Below are positions 17,407 through 22,029 of a stretch of DNA of 22,029 bases, one piece after another; position 1 is the first letter of the stretch; the number at the start of each line of letters is the position of its first letter. A program made the translations under genes and the position numbers. The stretch is from positions 1-22,029 of the IMG/VR virus record IMGVR_UViG_3300025151_000341; one strand, written 5' to 3'. The DNA comes from a virus. The notes under the pieces were generated by a model, which saw only the letters and a list, made by a program, of their open reading frames with translations, had not been told where the DNA came from and ran no database searches.

Positions 17407-18873
17407 ATGGCTGAGGGTTTTAAGTCTGATATTCCACCTGCAATTAATTCTACCGCTAAGAAATACATTAGGGGTATGATGAAGGGTAAGTCACGATGGG
17501 CTAAGTTATATGGCAGTCGTGACAAGGAAGTCATGCATAAGACCGCAAATAAGATGGCGATGGGAGAAATGCAAAAAATGCCACCTACATATAGTGATGT
17601 GTTTGGTGGCATCAGTGAAAAAGCAGTCTCCAAAAAGCAACAAAGATTCTTCGGGATGGTTAGAGCGGCTCAAAAAGGGGAAATGGAAAATCCCTCGCCT
17701 GAGGTTGCCAAAGTTGCTTCCTCCGCCAGCGTGTCCGACGTAAAGAAATTTGCTAAAACCAAACACAAAGGATTGCCGATGAAGAAGAAAGTTGAAGAAG
17801 CAAACAAAAGTGGTGATAGTTCTCTGCGTGACTGGTTTGGCAAGAGTAAGTCTTCTGATGGCAAGCCTGGGTGGGTTCAGTTGGGTGGTAAATATGCAGG
17901 AAAACCCTGTGCCAAACAACCAGGACAAACAACTAAACCCAAGTGTGGGTCTAGTAAGATGAAGAGAAACCTAAATAAAGACGAAGAGGAAGCAGCATTC
18001 CGTCGCAAGAATGCTAAAGATCCTAATCCTAATCGTAAAGGTAAGGCAATCAACGTGAAAACAGAAGATCTCGATCTCAAAAAAATGTCTAAGGAATTGG
18101 CTGGTGCATCCAAAATGCACAAGGGTCAATCCGAACGCATTAAAAAGCATTTGAAAAAAATGAAAGAAGCAGTTATTTCTGAGCGTGGTGATTACTGGCA
18201 TCCCGATCCCGATGAGGATCGTAAACTAGGTGGTCCTGGTGCAAACCAGCGTGCTCGTGAAGATCGTGCTGCAGCATCTAAACCCGCTGCTAAGAAGGCA
18301 GATCCTAAGAAACTGAAACCAGGTGAGTCTTACATGGACTATGCCAAGCGTCAGAAGGGTTATAGTTCTGCTAAACCTAAGAAGAAGTCTTTACTTGGTC
18401 GTTTAGGTTTGAAAAAAGAAGAAGTGCAACAGGAAGATTGCTGGGATGGATACGAGAAGAAGGGTATGAAGACTATGTTTGGTAAAAGATATCCAAACTG
18501 TGTTAAGAAAAAGAAGACTAAGAAAGAAGAGTTTGAAGTCCAAGAGGGCGTTGGTGATATGGTGATCAAAGCCATTGATAAAACCAAACCTCCCTATCTT
18601 AGTAAGCGTTCTGAATTGATTCGTAAGATTAAACAGAAGCAACTTGATAATTATCTCAAAAAGAGAGATAAGAAAAAGATGGGTGAAGACTTTGAGTATC
18701 AAGGCGAACTGATGACTGAAGAGCAGTTCGATGAGGCAGCAGGCGAGAAGGATGCTTGCTACAAAAAAGTTAAGGCACGTTACAGCGTTTGGCCAAGTGC
18801 ATATGCATCTGGTGCTCTCGTCAAGTGTCGTAAAGTCGGTGCAGCAAACTGGGGGAACAAGAGTAAAAAATGA
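17407..18873 (+). CDS. Lysine-rich mosaic phage protein (DUF3008 and DUF5872-like domains)
   Basis: A 488-residue, strongly basic protein made of short modules. Residues 1-60 are a helical segment (WAKLYGSRDKEVMHKTANKM). Residues 72-125 match DUF3008 (VSKKQQRFFGMVRAAQKGEM, then PEVAKVA and FAKTKHKGLP). Residues 138-220 match the DUF5872 pattern (LRDWFGKSKSSDGKPGWV, then C168, PKC180 and RRKNAKDPN). A 'CWDGYEKKGMK ... GKRYPNCVKKK' motif lies at 345-370. Residues 449-488 are a common phage C-terminal module (YSVWPSAYASGALVKCRKVG). Cysteines occur in pairs near Pro/Lys turns. No enzyme motif, membrane segment or signal peptide is seen. The CW ... GMK ... PNCV motif recurs at the start of the next gene, joined by an ATGA overlap. 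Candidate roles are packaged internal protein or nucleic-acid binding; neither is shown by the sequence. Confidence 0.7.
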   Translation: MAEGFKSDIPPAINSTAKKYIRGMMKGKSRWAKLYGSRDKEVMHKTANKMAMGEMQKMPPTYSDVFGGISEKAVSKKQQRFFGMVRAAQKGEMENPSPEVAKVASSASVSDVKKFAKTKHKGLPMKKKVEEANKSGDSSLRDWFGKSKSSDGKPGWVQLGGKYAGKPCAKQPGQTTKPKCGSSKMKRNLNKDEEEAAFRRKNAKDPNPNRKGKAINVKTEDLDLKKMSKELAGASKMHKGQSERIKKHLKKMKEAVISERGDYWHPDPDEDRKLGGPGANQRAREDRAAASKPAAKKADPKKLKPGESYMDYAKRQKGYSSAKPKKKSLLGRLGLKKEEVQQEDCWDGYEKKGMKTMFGKRYPNCVKKKKTKKEEFEVQEGVGDMVIKAIDKTKPPYLSKRSELIRKIKQKQLDNYLKKRDKKKMGEDFEYQGELMTEEQFDEAAGEKDACYKKVKARYSVWPSAYASGALVKCRKVGAANWGNKSKK

Positions 18874-19409
18874 AAACATTTAATCAGTTCCAAGCAGAAT
18901 GCTGGAAAACACACAAGAAAGTAGGTATGAAAATGAAGGGTGGCAAACTTGTCCCCAACTGTGTACCTAAGAACGAAGAGGTTCAAATCGAAGAAGGACC
19001 CAAATACGACAAAAAAGGTTATGATAAGTTTGATCGTTACAAGCGTATGGTCCGCCATAAGCAAGACAAGTATGGTGTCTCTACACTCAAGCAACGTCTG
19101 ATGCATGGTGGTGTGGACTATAACATTGATAATGAGAAGAAATCCAAGAAGGTTAAAAATGAAGGAGCTGCCTGGACTAAGAAGGCAGGAAAGAATAGTG
19201 AAGGAGGATTAAATGAAAAAGGTAGAAAGTCGTATGAGCGTGAAAACCCAGGAAGCGATCTTAAGGCACCTTCAAAAAAAGTTGGGAACCCTCGTAGAGC
19301 GAGCTTTTGTGCGAGAATGAGAGGAATGAAAAAGAAGTTGACATCTAAAAAAACTGCTTCTGATCCCGATTCTAGAATCAATAAATCCCTTAGAGCGTGG
19401 AATTGTTGA
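18870..19409 (+). CDS. Basic Cys-containing phage protein (DUF6321-like)
   Basis: A 179-residue, Lys/Arg-rich protein. Residues 5-35 repeat the upstream protein's motif (FQAECWKTHKKVGMKMKGGK, then PNCVPK). The C-terminal 80 residues (AAWTKKAGKNSEGGLNEKGR, then SFCARMRGMKKKLTSKKTA and DPDSRINKSLRAWNC) match the phage domain I remember as DUF6321. It ends on a conserved cysteine. The ATGA overlap with the 488-residue gene and the shared motif suggest the two act together or arose by module shuffling. The stop codon lies inside the -35 region of the promoter for the metabolic block. Function unknown; the charge suggests nucleic-acid contact. Confidence 0.7.
   Translation: MKTFNQFQAECWKTHKKVGMKMKGGKLVPNCVPKNEEVQIEEGPKYDKKGYDKFDRYKRMVRHKQDKYGVSTLKQRLMHGGVDYNIDNEKKSKKVKNEGAAWTKKAGKNSEGGLNEKGRKSYERENPGSDLKAPSKKVGNPRRASFCARMRGMKKKLTSKKTASDPDSRINKSLRAWNC
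19213..19320 (+). CDS. Possible 35-residue gene nested out of frame in the DUF6321-like gene
   Basis: A perfect Shine-Dalgarno AAGGAGG (19201-19207) stands 5 bases before an ATG that is +1 relative to the host gene. The frame stays open for 35 residues (starting MKKVESRMSVKTQEAILRHL) and ends at TGA 19318-19320. The peptide is basic and helical. Against it, AAGGAGG is also the coding of a Glu-Gly-Gly that the domain appears to conserve, so the ribosome site may be a by-product. Low confidence. Confidence 0.2.
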   Translation: MKKVESRMSVKTQEAILRHLQKKLGTLVERAFVRE

Positions 19410-19433
19410 CAAACTGTGTCAATGTGCTACAAT
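19406..19433 (+). promoter_or_regulatory. Sigma70-type promoter of the metabolic gene block
   Basis: TTGACA (19406-19411), a perfect -35 box, is followed after 16 bp by TACAAT (19428-19433), one mismatch from TATAAT. Transcription would start near 19440, giving a leader of about 30 bases with AAAGGA at 19455-19460 before the ATG at 19472. This is the type of promoter read by host RNA polymerase early in infection. The -35 box is also one arm of the palindrome TTGACA-AACTG-TGTCAA (19406-19422), which may be an operator. Confidence 0.75.
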
Positions 19434-19438
19434 AAATA
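19431..19438 (+). promoter_or_regulatory. Late promoter box overlapping the sigma70 promoter
   Basis: AATAAATA matches the late consensus TATAAATA at 7 of 8 positions and shares its first three bases with the TACAAT box. The same start region could thus be used by host sigma70 early and by the phage late factor afterwards. Confidence 0.5.
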
Positions 19439-19471
19439 GGTAAACCCACTATACAAAGGATACTGCATTTT

Positions 19472-19771
19472 ATGACTGATCCAAAGGAAGTTTCGTCTTT
19501 TTCCATGGAACGGAAGGAGTGCGAGAAGTGTGGTGCCGTTTGGTTGAACGGTCAGCATATGTGGACAGGAACTGGTCAGAAAGGTAACGAATTAGATCTG
19601 GCGGGACTCGTTTGCAACAATATTTCAAAAGAAGATCCAGATTATAATAAATGTATAAACGCTAGTCGTGGACAGGTAGGTGGACAGACCTGGGACTATC
19701 GAAGAGGGTATGTAGATGGTCAACTTGACGCTGCTCTCAAAAAGTCTCAAAACCCTGACAATTCAATTTGA
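19472..19771 (+). CDS. Small cysteine-containing cyanophage protein, unknown function
   Basis: A 99-residue soluble protein. Cysteines lie at 17 and 20 (CEKC), 48 and 61, with His29 between. The CxxC plus two later Cys could form a small zinc site or disulfides. Other recognisable segments are 'WLNGQHMWTGTGQKGNE' and 'YRRGYVDGQLDAAL'. I have seen similar proteins in cyanophages and picocyanobacteria without an assigned role. It is the first gene after the strong promoter, with AAAGGA 11 bases before the ATG. A stem-loop begins five bases after its stop, which may end part of its transcription before petE. Confidence 0.6.
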   Translation: MTDPKEVSSFSMERKECEKCGAVWLNGQHMWTGTGQKGNELDLAGLVCNNISKEDPDYNKCINASRGQVGGQTWDYRRGYVDGQLDAALKKSQNPDNSI

Positions 19772-19776
19772 ACCTT

Positions 19777-19827
19777 AAACTTCATTGAGTAAATAGCATT
19801 AGTTGCTAGAACTTAATGAAGTTTTTT
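19777..19827 (+). promoter_or_regulatory. Stem-loop with T-run that buries the petE start codon (terminator or translational switch)
   Basis: AAACTTCATTGAGT (19777-19790) pairs with ACTTAATGAAGTTT (19811-19824) over 14 positions: 13 Watson-Crick pairs and one G-U. The loop is 20 bases and holds a small inner stem (TAGC 19794-19797, GCTA 19805-19808). Six T residues at 19822-19827 follow, as in an intrinsic terminator. The petE ATG (19816-19818) lies inside the downstream arm. In a transcript reading through from 19440 the start codon would be paired. A terminator for the upstream gene and a translation block for petE are both consistent. Confidence 0.7.
19788..19795 (+). promoter_or_regulatory. 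Possible late promoter box inside the petE hairpin
   Basis: AGTAAATA keeps the TAAATA core of the late box TATAAATA (6 of 8). A transcript starting about six bases further on (near 19801) would lack the upstream arm of the stem and so leave the petE ATG unpaired, with a leader of about 15 bases. The match is weaker than the other late boxes in the window, so this is tentative. Confidence 0.35.
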
Positions 19828-20139
19828 ATTGCCGTTTTCGCTTCGTTGTTTCTTGCCCTCCCTGCATGGGCAGTAGATGTTCAAATGGGATCAAATGGTA
19901 ATCTTGTGTTTGATCCTGCAGAGGTTACTATCTCTGCTGGCGAGTCGGTGCATTTTGTTAATAATATGCTCCCTCCTCATAACGTTATTGTTGAAGATCG
20001 TCCTGACTTAGGTCATGAAGCCCTTGCAATGATGCCTGGTGAAGAGTTTGATGTTGCATTTCCAGAGGCAGGTGACTATACTTACTGGTGTGGTCCCCAT
20101 AAAGGTGCAGGAATGATCGGTACAGTTCACGTCGAATGA
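19816..20139 (+). CDS. petE: Plastocyanin (phage-encoded photosynthetic electron carrier)
   Basis: A 107-residue precursor of the blue copper protein that carries electrons from cytochrome b6f to photosystem I (or to terminal oxidases) in the thylakoid lumen. Residues 1-19 form a Sec signal peptide (Lys2, a hydrophobic core, then LPAWA before VDV). The type I copper ligands are in place: His55 (LPPHNV), Cys92 and His95 (WCGPH) and Met100 (GAGM). The mature part, about 88 residues, is slightly short for plastocyanins. An in-frame TAG at 19807 sits 9 bases upstream and the next in-frame ATG would remove the signal peptide, so 19816 is the start. The ATG lies within a strong stem-loop and has no good Shine-Dalgarno. 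The stop overlaps the next gene by 4 bp (ATGA). Carriage by cyanomyoviruses is known. Confidence 0.93.
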   Translation: MKFFIAVFASLFLALPAWAVDVQMGSNGNLVFDPAEVTISAGESVHFVNNMLPPHNVIVEDRPDLGHEALAMMPGEEFDVAFPEAGDYTYWCGPHKGAGMIGTVHVE

Positions 20140-20303
20140 ATTCAGACCAAAGAAGAGAGTTTTACAAATCTCTTAGAGAAAGAATAAAACAACTCAGAAT
20201 GGAACATTTATTTGAAGAACCTTGCCCCCTTTATGAACCAGAGTGGGAAGAAGACCACTATTGGGACTGTCGTTTAACTTACGATCACGATGAAGAAATT
20301 TAA
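20136..20303 (+). CDS. Small acidic protein between plastocyanin and PTOX
   Basis: A 55-residue open frame from the ATG that overlaps the petE stop (ATGA) to a TAA at 20301-20303, running 14 bp into PTOX. It fills exactly the gap between two established genes and is linked by overlap on both sides, which is the main argument that it is real. Residues 5-22 are basic and helical (QRREFYKSLRERIKQLRM). The rest is acidic and aromatic (CPLYEPEWEEDHYWDC), with two Cys 16 apart and three His. No membrane segment or signal peptide. I do not recognise a family. It may only couple translation of the two redox genes, or may have its own job. Confidence 0.6.
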   Translation: MNSDQRREFYKSLRERIKQLRMEHLFEEPCPLYEPEWEEDHYWDCRLTYDHDEEI

Positions 20304-20796
20304 CGAGATTATTTTAAACATCACAGTTGCTATACTCGACTTTTTATATCGGGGTCGGGATTATCAAAGATTCTGGGTGCTTGAGGAAATTGCTCGAGCA
20401 CCCTATTTTGCGTTTTTAAGTGTATTACACTTTCGTGAAAGTATGGGACTTCGCGGTCCCGAGCATCTATATTTGATGAAACAACACTTCGAGCAGTCAG
20501 TCAATGAAACAGAGCATCTGGAGTATATGGAAAGCAGGGGTGGCAATACTTATTTTATCGATCGTTTTGTTGCCAAGCATCTCGTCCTTATCTACTATTG
20601 GACTAACGTGGTTTATTATTGGGTATCTCCTCGCAATGCTTACCATCTCTCTTACGAAGTAGAGATCCATGCAGCAGAAACTTATGCTAAGTTTCTTGCT
20701 TTTAATGGGCATGACGACAAGATCCTTGAGATTTTGAATGATGAACTACACCATTCAAAAGAATTACATGATGCAATGGAGTTAATTAATGTTTAA
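20290..20796 (+). CDS. ptox: Plastoquinol terminal oxidase (PTOX)
   Basis: A 168-residue diiron oxidase of the alternative oxidase family. It oxidises plastoquinol and reduces oxygen to water at the thylakoid membrane, bypassing cytochrome b6f and photosystem I. The expected iron ligands are visible: Glu32 in LEEIARAPYF, Glu73 and His76 in NETEHLEYM, Glu125 in YEVEIHAAETY, and Glu152 and His155 in DELHH. The active-site WVSPRNAYH stretch is also present. Association with one membrane face through hydrophobic helices is expected for the family; helix 95-112 is hydrophobic. Cyanophage versions of about this length are known. It follows the 55-residue gene with a 14-bp overlap and ends 8 bp inside the next gene, whose GGAG Shine-Dalgarno (20778-20781) lies in its last codons. 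Confidence 0.93.
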   Translation: MKKFNEIILNITVAILDFLYRGRDYQRFWVLEEIARAPYFAFLSVLHFRESMGLRGPEHLYLMKQHFEQSVNETEHLEYMESRGGNTYFIDRFVAKHLVLIYYWTNVVYYWVSPRNAYHLSYEVEIHAAETYAKFLAFNGHDDKILEILNDELHHSKELHDAMELINV

Positions 20797-21192: not shown

Positions 21193-21358
21193 TGATGAAC
21201 CTGATCCTACAGCATACATGGGTAATTACAATTTTCCCCAGATGTTATTCGCATTCTGTGTAGGTTTTGCTACTATGTTTGTCTTAGCAGTCGATGAGAT
21301 AAACGATTTTAAGGGATGTCCACTCCCAGAATATTTTCAAAACGAGGTAAAAGGATGA
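21086..21358 (+). CDS. Small membrane protein with charged N-terminus, unknown
   Basis: A 90-residue protein. Residues 1-30 are very rich in Lys, Glu, Ser and Asp. Residues 31-48 contain 'MIHPHDDEPDPTAYMGNYN'. Residues 52-68 (MLFAFCVGFATMFVLAV) predict one membrane segment, followed by a short tail with one Cys. I recall similar short membrane proteins in cyanophages. An in-frame ATG at 21176 would give a 60-residue form that avoids nearly all of the overlap with the previous gene; the longer start is preferred because the N-terminal segment is open and starts with a favourable MAT, but this is not decisive. The stop overlaps the gnd start by 4 bp (ATGA). Confidence 0.55.
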   Translation: MATPEKKPKIQKQETESDDKSKRSSEEIARMIHPHDDEPDPTAYMGNYNFPQMLFAFCVGFATMFVLAVDEINDFKGCPLPEYFQNEVKG

Positions 21359-22029
21359 AAGTCGGAATGATCGGATTAGGACGGATGGGAGAAGGAATGT
21401 CCCGTCGTCTTATCAAAGCAGGGCACGAAGTACATGGTTACAGAAACAATTATGCAAAAGCTGAAGAACAATTTGAAAAGGGTTATATCAGTGGATGTAC
21501 CACTTCTCTGGAAAGCCTTGTTCAAGTAATACACGAAGGATCGCCCATGACTGGCAAAGTGCCAGGAGTATTCATGATGGTTGTGCCAGCAGAAACAGTG
21601 GAGGATACACTCGATGAGTTACTACAGTTTTGTAGTGAAGGAGATATTATTATTGATCACGGCAATAGTAATTTTAAAGACAGTAGGAGGCGAGCAGAAC
21701 GTCTTGCTAAACTGGGCATGTCGTATATTGACTGTGGCACTAGTGGCGGTGTTTACGGTTTGGACCGTGGATACTGTCTTATGGTTGGTGGTGCAAATTT
21801 TGCAGTATCCGCCTGCGCTCCTATCTTTAGAGCACTCGCACCAGGTATCGGAAGTGCTCCCAGGACTGACCCTCTAGATTACTACGAAACAAGTGCTGAG
21901 CATGGTTGGTTGCACTGTGGACCACCAGGAGCAGGTCACTTTGTAAAGATGGTCCATAATGGAGTTGAGTATGGAATCATGCAAGCATACGCAGAAGGAT
22001 TTAATATCCTGCATGAAGCTAATGCTGGG
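21355..22029 (+). CDS. gnd: 6-phosphogluconate dehydrogenase (3' end outside window)
   Basis: The first 225 codons are open to the window edge. The enzyme decarboxylates 6-phosphogluconate to ribulose 5-phosphate with production of NAD(P)H in the oxidative pentose phosphate pathway, in the cytoplasm. Visible motifs are the Rossmann GLGRMG (7-12), DHGNSNF (101-107), the substrate-site DCGTSGGVYGL (126-136), and GHFVKMVHNGVEYG (194-207), in which Lys198, His201, Asn202 and Glu205 occupy catalytic or substrate positions of the family. The form looks like the shorter class (about 300-340 residues), as reported in cyanophages. GAGG at 21344-21347 stands 7 bases before the ATG, which overlaps the previous stop. 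In cyanophage infections it would supply NADPH and ribose for nucleotide synthesis, matching the electron-flow genes upstream. Confidence 0.92.
   Translation, partial: MKVGMIGLGRMGEGMSRRLIKAGHEVHGYRNNYAKAEEQFEKGYISGCTTSLESLVQVIHEGSPMTGKVPGVFMMVVPAETVEDTLDELLQFCSEGDIIIDHGNSNFKDSRRRAERLAKLGMSYIDCGTSGGVYGLDRGYCLMVGGANFAVSACAPIFRALAPGIGSAPRTDPLDYYETSAEHGWLHCGPPGAGHFVKMVHNGVEYGIMQAYAEGFNILHEANAG

Follow-up and report, generated by a model that had tools for sequence, protein, structure and literature searches.

How is the synthesis of plastocyanin timed in a T4-like cyanophage whose petE start codon lies inside a stem-loop that also carries a promoter-like core? The scheduling of host-derived metabolic genes by phages is mostly read from transcript levels, and petE transcript abundance would misstate the timing of the protein if read-through mRNA is barred from translation. 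The initial annotation of this DNA had proposed that the hairpin keeps petE silent or attenuated on a transcript from an upstream promoter, and that a late promoter inside the hairpin escapes it. The reading that we favor, and regard as probable though far from secure, is that the hairpin acts in cis as a lock on petE translation with an embedded, probably late, promoter, of the T4 e/I-TevI type.

The window, i.e., the whole stretch of DNA analyzed here, is an entire 22,029-base IMG/VR record from a T4-like cyanophage, in which structural genes are followed by a short ORF (phrog_484), petE, a small ORF, PTOX, and gnd (Table 1). The same gene order is found in Syn9, where the genes upstream of petE are structural and the series continues into zwf and an endonuclease; the petE-PTOX-gnd-zwf region of Syn9 is a possible mobile cassette according to Sullivan et al. 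(PMC3037559). Just upstream in the window, an ORF with a DUF6321 domain (PF19846; 18870-19409) shares phrog_727 with the preceding ORF (17407-18873), and the two look like one gene split in this record.

Table 1. Features of the petE region in the window, with the basis for each assignment.
Feature	Position	Strand	Basis or remark
Composite promoter, sigma70-like (TTGACA-16-TACAAT) + TAAATA	19406..19438	+	TAAATA at 19433-19438 overlaps
ORF upstream of petE	19472..19771	+	phrog_484, T4-GC 392 family; gp116 position in Syn9
Upstream (5') stem arm, AAACTTCATTGAGT	19777..19790	+	Sequence, fold; conserved across two petE lineages
TAAATA core (AGTAAATAG) of a putative T4-type late promoter	19790..19795	+	Predicted start near 19801
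Inner hairpin in loop, 19794-19798 with 19804-19808	19794..19808	+	RNA fold
Predicted 15-nt leader of short transcript, without 5' arm	19801..19815	+	Inferred from T4 late spacing
Downstream (3') stem arm, ACTTAATGAAGTTT, containing petE start codon and codon 2	19811..19824	+	Sequence, fold, alignment
petE, plastocyanin with signal peptide	19816..20139	+	PF00127 E 5.8e-20; phrog_515
T6 tract in petE codons 3-4; U-tract of a possible terminator	19822..19827	+	
Small ORF, gp118 position	20136..20303	+	phrog_2505
Plastoquinol terminal oxidase (PTOX)	20290..20796	+	Profile/phrog match
gnd, 6-phosphogluconate dehydrogenase	21316..22029	+	Truncated by record end

Direct reading confirmed the stem that had been described, 14 pairs joining 19777-19790 with 19811-19824, of which one is G-U (19787-19814) and three are G-C. 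The petE ATG (19816-19818) is paired with 19783-19785, and the run of six T residues is also present, three of them lying within the stem. As RNA, 19770-19832 folds at -21.6 kcal/mol (z -5.57), and none of 200 shuffles was as good. The pairing of the inner hairpin differs among relatives and in some lengthens the outer stem, so that many members have over 20 almost uninterrupted pairs. No Rfam covariance model matched 19400-20200 up to an E of 1.

A collection of 323 petE loci gave 158 distinct start regions. Two annotations in this collection are at odds with the gene: petE of S-SCSM1 is labeled 'tail tip protein Tal', and the annotated petE start of S-MbCM100 is too far downstream. The stem group was defined as the 34 distinct starts that have a TAAATAG core at the right distance, the upstream arm being unused in the choice except for its last base. 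The folding z-score was below -3 in 31 of these 34 (mean -5.2) and in only one of 118 other petE starts (mean -0.1); the stem is thus not a by-product of the petE start sequence. It is present in two petE lineages that share 62% protein identity and are split by a 100/100 branch, and its carriers among cultured phages are Syn9, S-SM1, Syn19, S-RIM2, ACG-2014d, and ACG-2014a. Conservation in petE lineage A is 0.95 for the upstream arm, 0.75 for the flank, and 0.79 for petE third codon positions, and at TAGATA-type petE loci nothing is conserved upstream of the core.

The element is nevertheless dispensable. Several stem members have a mismatch, the stem is largely lost in L120 and L353, and the majority of petE loci are without the hairpin, including some with the same upstream promoter and many at the same locus. 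Because most petE genes do without it, even beside that promoter, a lock here would be a modulating and non-essential device. On the petE tree, the stem label requires at least six changes, and the leader may have recombined with different petE bodies or the stem may have been lost and regained. Three loci of one petE lineage (L067, L071, and L076; petE -50 to +27) have a different, 12-pair hairpin, GTAAAGAAGAAC with GTTCTTCTTTGC, around the core and start codon; its z is about -2.5, and it is perhaps an independent version of the lock. A candidate second hairpin in L017 was rejected, as it did not rise above shuffles (z -1.2 and +1.2 in two runs).

A maintained stem had been expected to show compensatory changes in relatives, and the alignment contains both these and conservation of the stem itself. 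Among ACG-2014a relatives, the 19778-19823 pair is U-A instead of A-U, petE codon 3 having changed from TTT to TAT; 19788-19813 goes from A-U to G-C in L243 and L269, and 19787-19814 from G-U to U-G in L269. Consistent one-sided changes give G-C in L226 and A-U in L206. A two-sided C-G to U-A cell in L353 stands in a row without a remaining stem and is probably due to chance. In one alignment variant, a single base missing from the ACG-2014a group was represented by a hand-placed gap (a placeholder). With this gap, 93% of cells are paired, compared to 28-54% in slid controls, and the two-sided counts were reached by 0/500 shuffles; without it, 88.9% of cells are paired, and the two-sided pairs were reached by 24/500 shuffles and the cells by 4/500. 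Support from covariation is therefore good rather than overwhelming: the two-sided events are few, perhaps three of them independent, and the signal is weaker without the hand-placed gap. Different bases, the promoter core among them, pair in the upper stem of ACG-2014a and S-RIM12, and the hairpin has kept its stability there (z -5.6 and -6.4). The most constant pairs are those opposite AUGAAG, and the most variable are the outer ones by the U-tract and the upper ones, which favors hiding of the start as the selected function. Judged by these comparisons, the stem is real and selectively maintained.

The TAAATA core is likewise where it had been placed, at the end of the upstream arm. The window contains 15 copies of TAAATA against 16.3 expected, neither rarer nor commoner than chance, and the significance of this copy thus comes from its conservation and not from the bare match. 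The core is invariant in the stem group by the way that group was chosen, and TAGATA takes its place in other petE lineages. We infer a late class for the internal promoter because TAAATA fits the NATAAATA type, the late promoter type used for comparison (PMC2984593), because there is no conserved -35 box, and because homologues of the late transcription factors gp55, gp33, and gp45 are annotated in Syn9, itself a stem carrier; note that AGTAAATAG is neither the best match to NATAAATA nor the commonest context. We dropped AATAGT as a general sigma70 -10 box for the internal promoter, as the window clade has AATAGC and a -35 box is not conserved.

Two further elements were seen near petE starts. 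Other petE lineages carry TAGATAGTGTAGTTGC in place of the TAAATA-type core, as a block some 20 nt ahead of the petE start codon that is conserved in many distinct loci (e.g., L013, L029, and L073) and has no Shine-Dalgarno; TAGATAGTGTAGTTGC was searched for elsewhere in Syn9 and was not found, and the block is possibly a petE-specific form of late promoter and leader. Many stem members, the window not among them, have a second TTAAATAA core at about -58 relative to the petE ATG, ahead of the 5' arm, and a transcript from that core would still be locked.

A transcript starting at 19440 had been proposed as the silent one, and the promoter behind it is present: a sigma70-like TTGACA-16-TACAAT at 19406-19433, which overlaps a TAAATA. 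Middle expression in such phages has been proposed to come from early and late promoters that overlap (PMC2984593), and this composite promoter could be the source of read-through transcripts. An upstream sigma70-like/late promoter or late core was found at 32 of 33 stem-bearing loci, in some as TAAATAG near -602, the association of the stem with the composite promoter being confounded by genomic locus. Read-through into petE could also be late, as the upstream neighbors in Syn9 are structural. The upstream stop lies 5 nt ahead of the stem in the window, where petE might be translationally coupled to the gene before it; in Syn9, ACG-2014d, and S-RIM12, however, the gap measures some 28-40 nt.

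Predicted folds separate the two kinds of transcript. The AUG has a pairing probability of 1.00 on transcripts from 19440 (19440-19900) or 19700 and of 0.16 on one from 19801. Accessibility was measured as opening energy; a helix count in which loop contacts had been included was discarded. In the stem group, opening the start costs 13.6 kcal/mol on average on the long transcript and 5.0 on the short one, a drop of 8.6, whereas the change at 92 other petE loci is 0.7. Among 225 genes of Syn9, petE ranks first, both for the cost of opening its start on a long transcript (17.9, against a mean of 5.5 with an sd of 2.9) and for the drop (14.0; the next is 9.3). The same measure applied to a 28-kb stretch of T4 singles out e, I-TevII, and 49, which have been described as hairpin-regulated (PMC3014915, PMC2988022). 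The proposal of a hidden start codon therefore holds to the extent that it is closed on the long and open on the short transcript in predicted folds and that its signature matches the T4 precedents; in all likelihood, the stem hides the petE start on read-through RNA. Elsewhere in Syn9 (DQ149023, 5141(-)/5179(+); L222), divergent, facing TAAATAG cores between gp48-like and gp4-like genes form a hairpin across both start regions, with a high opening cost both ways.

The serious rival is that the hairpin primarily ends or attenuates transcription of the upstream unit, as an intrinsic terminator into which the next promoter and start codon have been packed, start hiding being a by-product. The stem runs directly into a U-tract, and codons 3-6 include at least five consecutive T residues at 35 of 37 TAAATAG-core loci but at 55 of 127 others. 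At four loci (L023, L026, L048, and L060), the petE promoter is instead immediately preceded by a GC-rich terminator of the ordinary kind, and several Syn9 start codons are on the U-tract of an upstream terminator: the annotated starts at 119464, 160626 (talC), 164187, and 168349 lie on or after the tract of the preceding gene's GC-rich terminator. The petE hairpin itself, however, does not have the GC-rich stem and short loop of an intrinsic terminator. Its G-C pairs number only 3-5, and a simple terminator scan did not contain it, a miss explained by the long loop. ACG-2014d and L269 have a broken tract (UUUCUUUUU), the region would be U-rich in any case because of its F codons, and the pairs by the tract are among those that vary most, the ones opposite the start codon being the most constant. 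We consider termination unlikely as the primary role, but termination and start hiding are compatible functions, not separable by sequence, and the former is to be taken seriously as a rival or as a second function.

The other readings are much less probable. Were the hairpin a processing site, a double-strand RNase would cut read-through RNA in a stem of 20-24 pairs and free the petE mRNA; the length of nearly continuous pairing in many members would suit such an enzyme, but cuts in the arms would have unpredictable effects, taking the start codon away or laying it bare, there is no known motif, and processing is unneeded if a promoter lies inside, all of which makes this very improbable. We give equally little weight to a block of promoter and start region that is spread by recombination and conserved irrespective of pairing. 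Such a block does move between petE lineages, and CATTGAGTAAATAG is kept in L353 though the stem is gone, but changes in the upstream arm track those in the coding arm, S-RIM12 and ACG-2014a have re-formed the upper stem from other pairs, and TAGATA-type loci lack conservation upstream of the core. The least likely reading is that the inverted repeat acts as DNA, as an operator that overlaps the promoter and binds a dimeric repressor. The repeat does surround the promoter core, and in T4, I-TevI is a DNA-binding protein at the late promoter of its own gene (PMC2988022); the arms, however, are separated by a spacer that varies by several bases with no fixed phase, and G-U pairs (the usual one at 19787-19814, and A-U to G-U changes in L005, L015, and L212) break a DNA palindrome but not an RNA stem. 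Variable spacing and tolerance of G-U pairs thus argue for RNA rather than a DNA operator.

Under the translational lock that we favor, a transcript entering from upstream would carry the 5' arm, which in silico takes up the start codon and the bases around it in a helix, and ribosomes would be blocked. The TAAATA core would start a short transcript near 19801 that is without this arm and leaves the start codon free, such that expression of petE, the first gene of the petE-PTOX-gnd-zwf cassette, would depend entirely on the promoter within the hairpin, probably a late one. As a possible second layer, the hairpin, ended by its U-tract, may also terminate part of the read-through. A broader and doubtful, though not far-fetched, version is a dual RNA switch on petE and thereby on the whole cassette: the hairpin would both terminate and silence read-through, the internal late promoter would bypass both, and the leader would recombine among petE bodies and be refitted by compensatory changes, freeing the mobile cassette from its landing site. 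Our literature search found no paper describing the ends of petE transcripts or a stem-loop at a phage plastocyanin gene. What would be new is the T4 lock with an embedded late promoter on a new class of gene: if the reading is true, a control known for lysis, capsid, and homing-endonuclease genes extends to a marine photosynthesis gene. Syn9 is cultured, has known hosts, and carries the element, making the question directly testable.

The closest precedents are T4 e, soc, and 49, in which a hairpin locks the start region on early transcripts and late transcripts free it (PMC3014915; Syn9 is listed there only as being without gene e). Common to these genes and the arrangement proposed for petE are a T4-like phage, a late-type core in the 5' strand with the start codon in the 3' strand, and a short transcript without the 5' strand. 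The opening energies from long to short transcript are also like those of petE, 15.5 to 1.0 for e and 12.4 to 2.7 for 49. Unlike them, petE is a photosynthesis gene atop a metabolic cassette, has no visible Shine-Dalgarno, and has a U-tract after the stem. T4 I-TevI, I-TevII, and segB, and Aeh1 mobE (PMC2988022), resemble the arrangement proposed for petE in the hairpin on read-through RNA of the host unit, in the late promoter inside it, and in the location of the gene on a possibly mobile segment, but the target at petE is a plastocyanin gene and not an endonuclease. An intrinsic terminator before a late promoter, an arrangement present at other petE loci, likewise places a hairpin and U-tract between two units; the petE hairpin differs from the ordinary kind in being AU-rich, in its long loop, and in holding the start codon within its stem.
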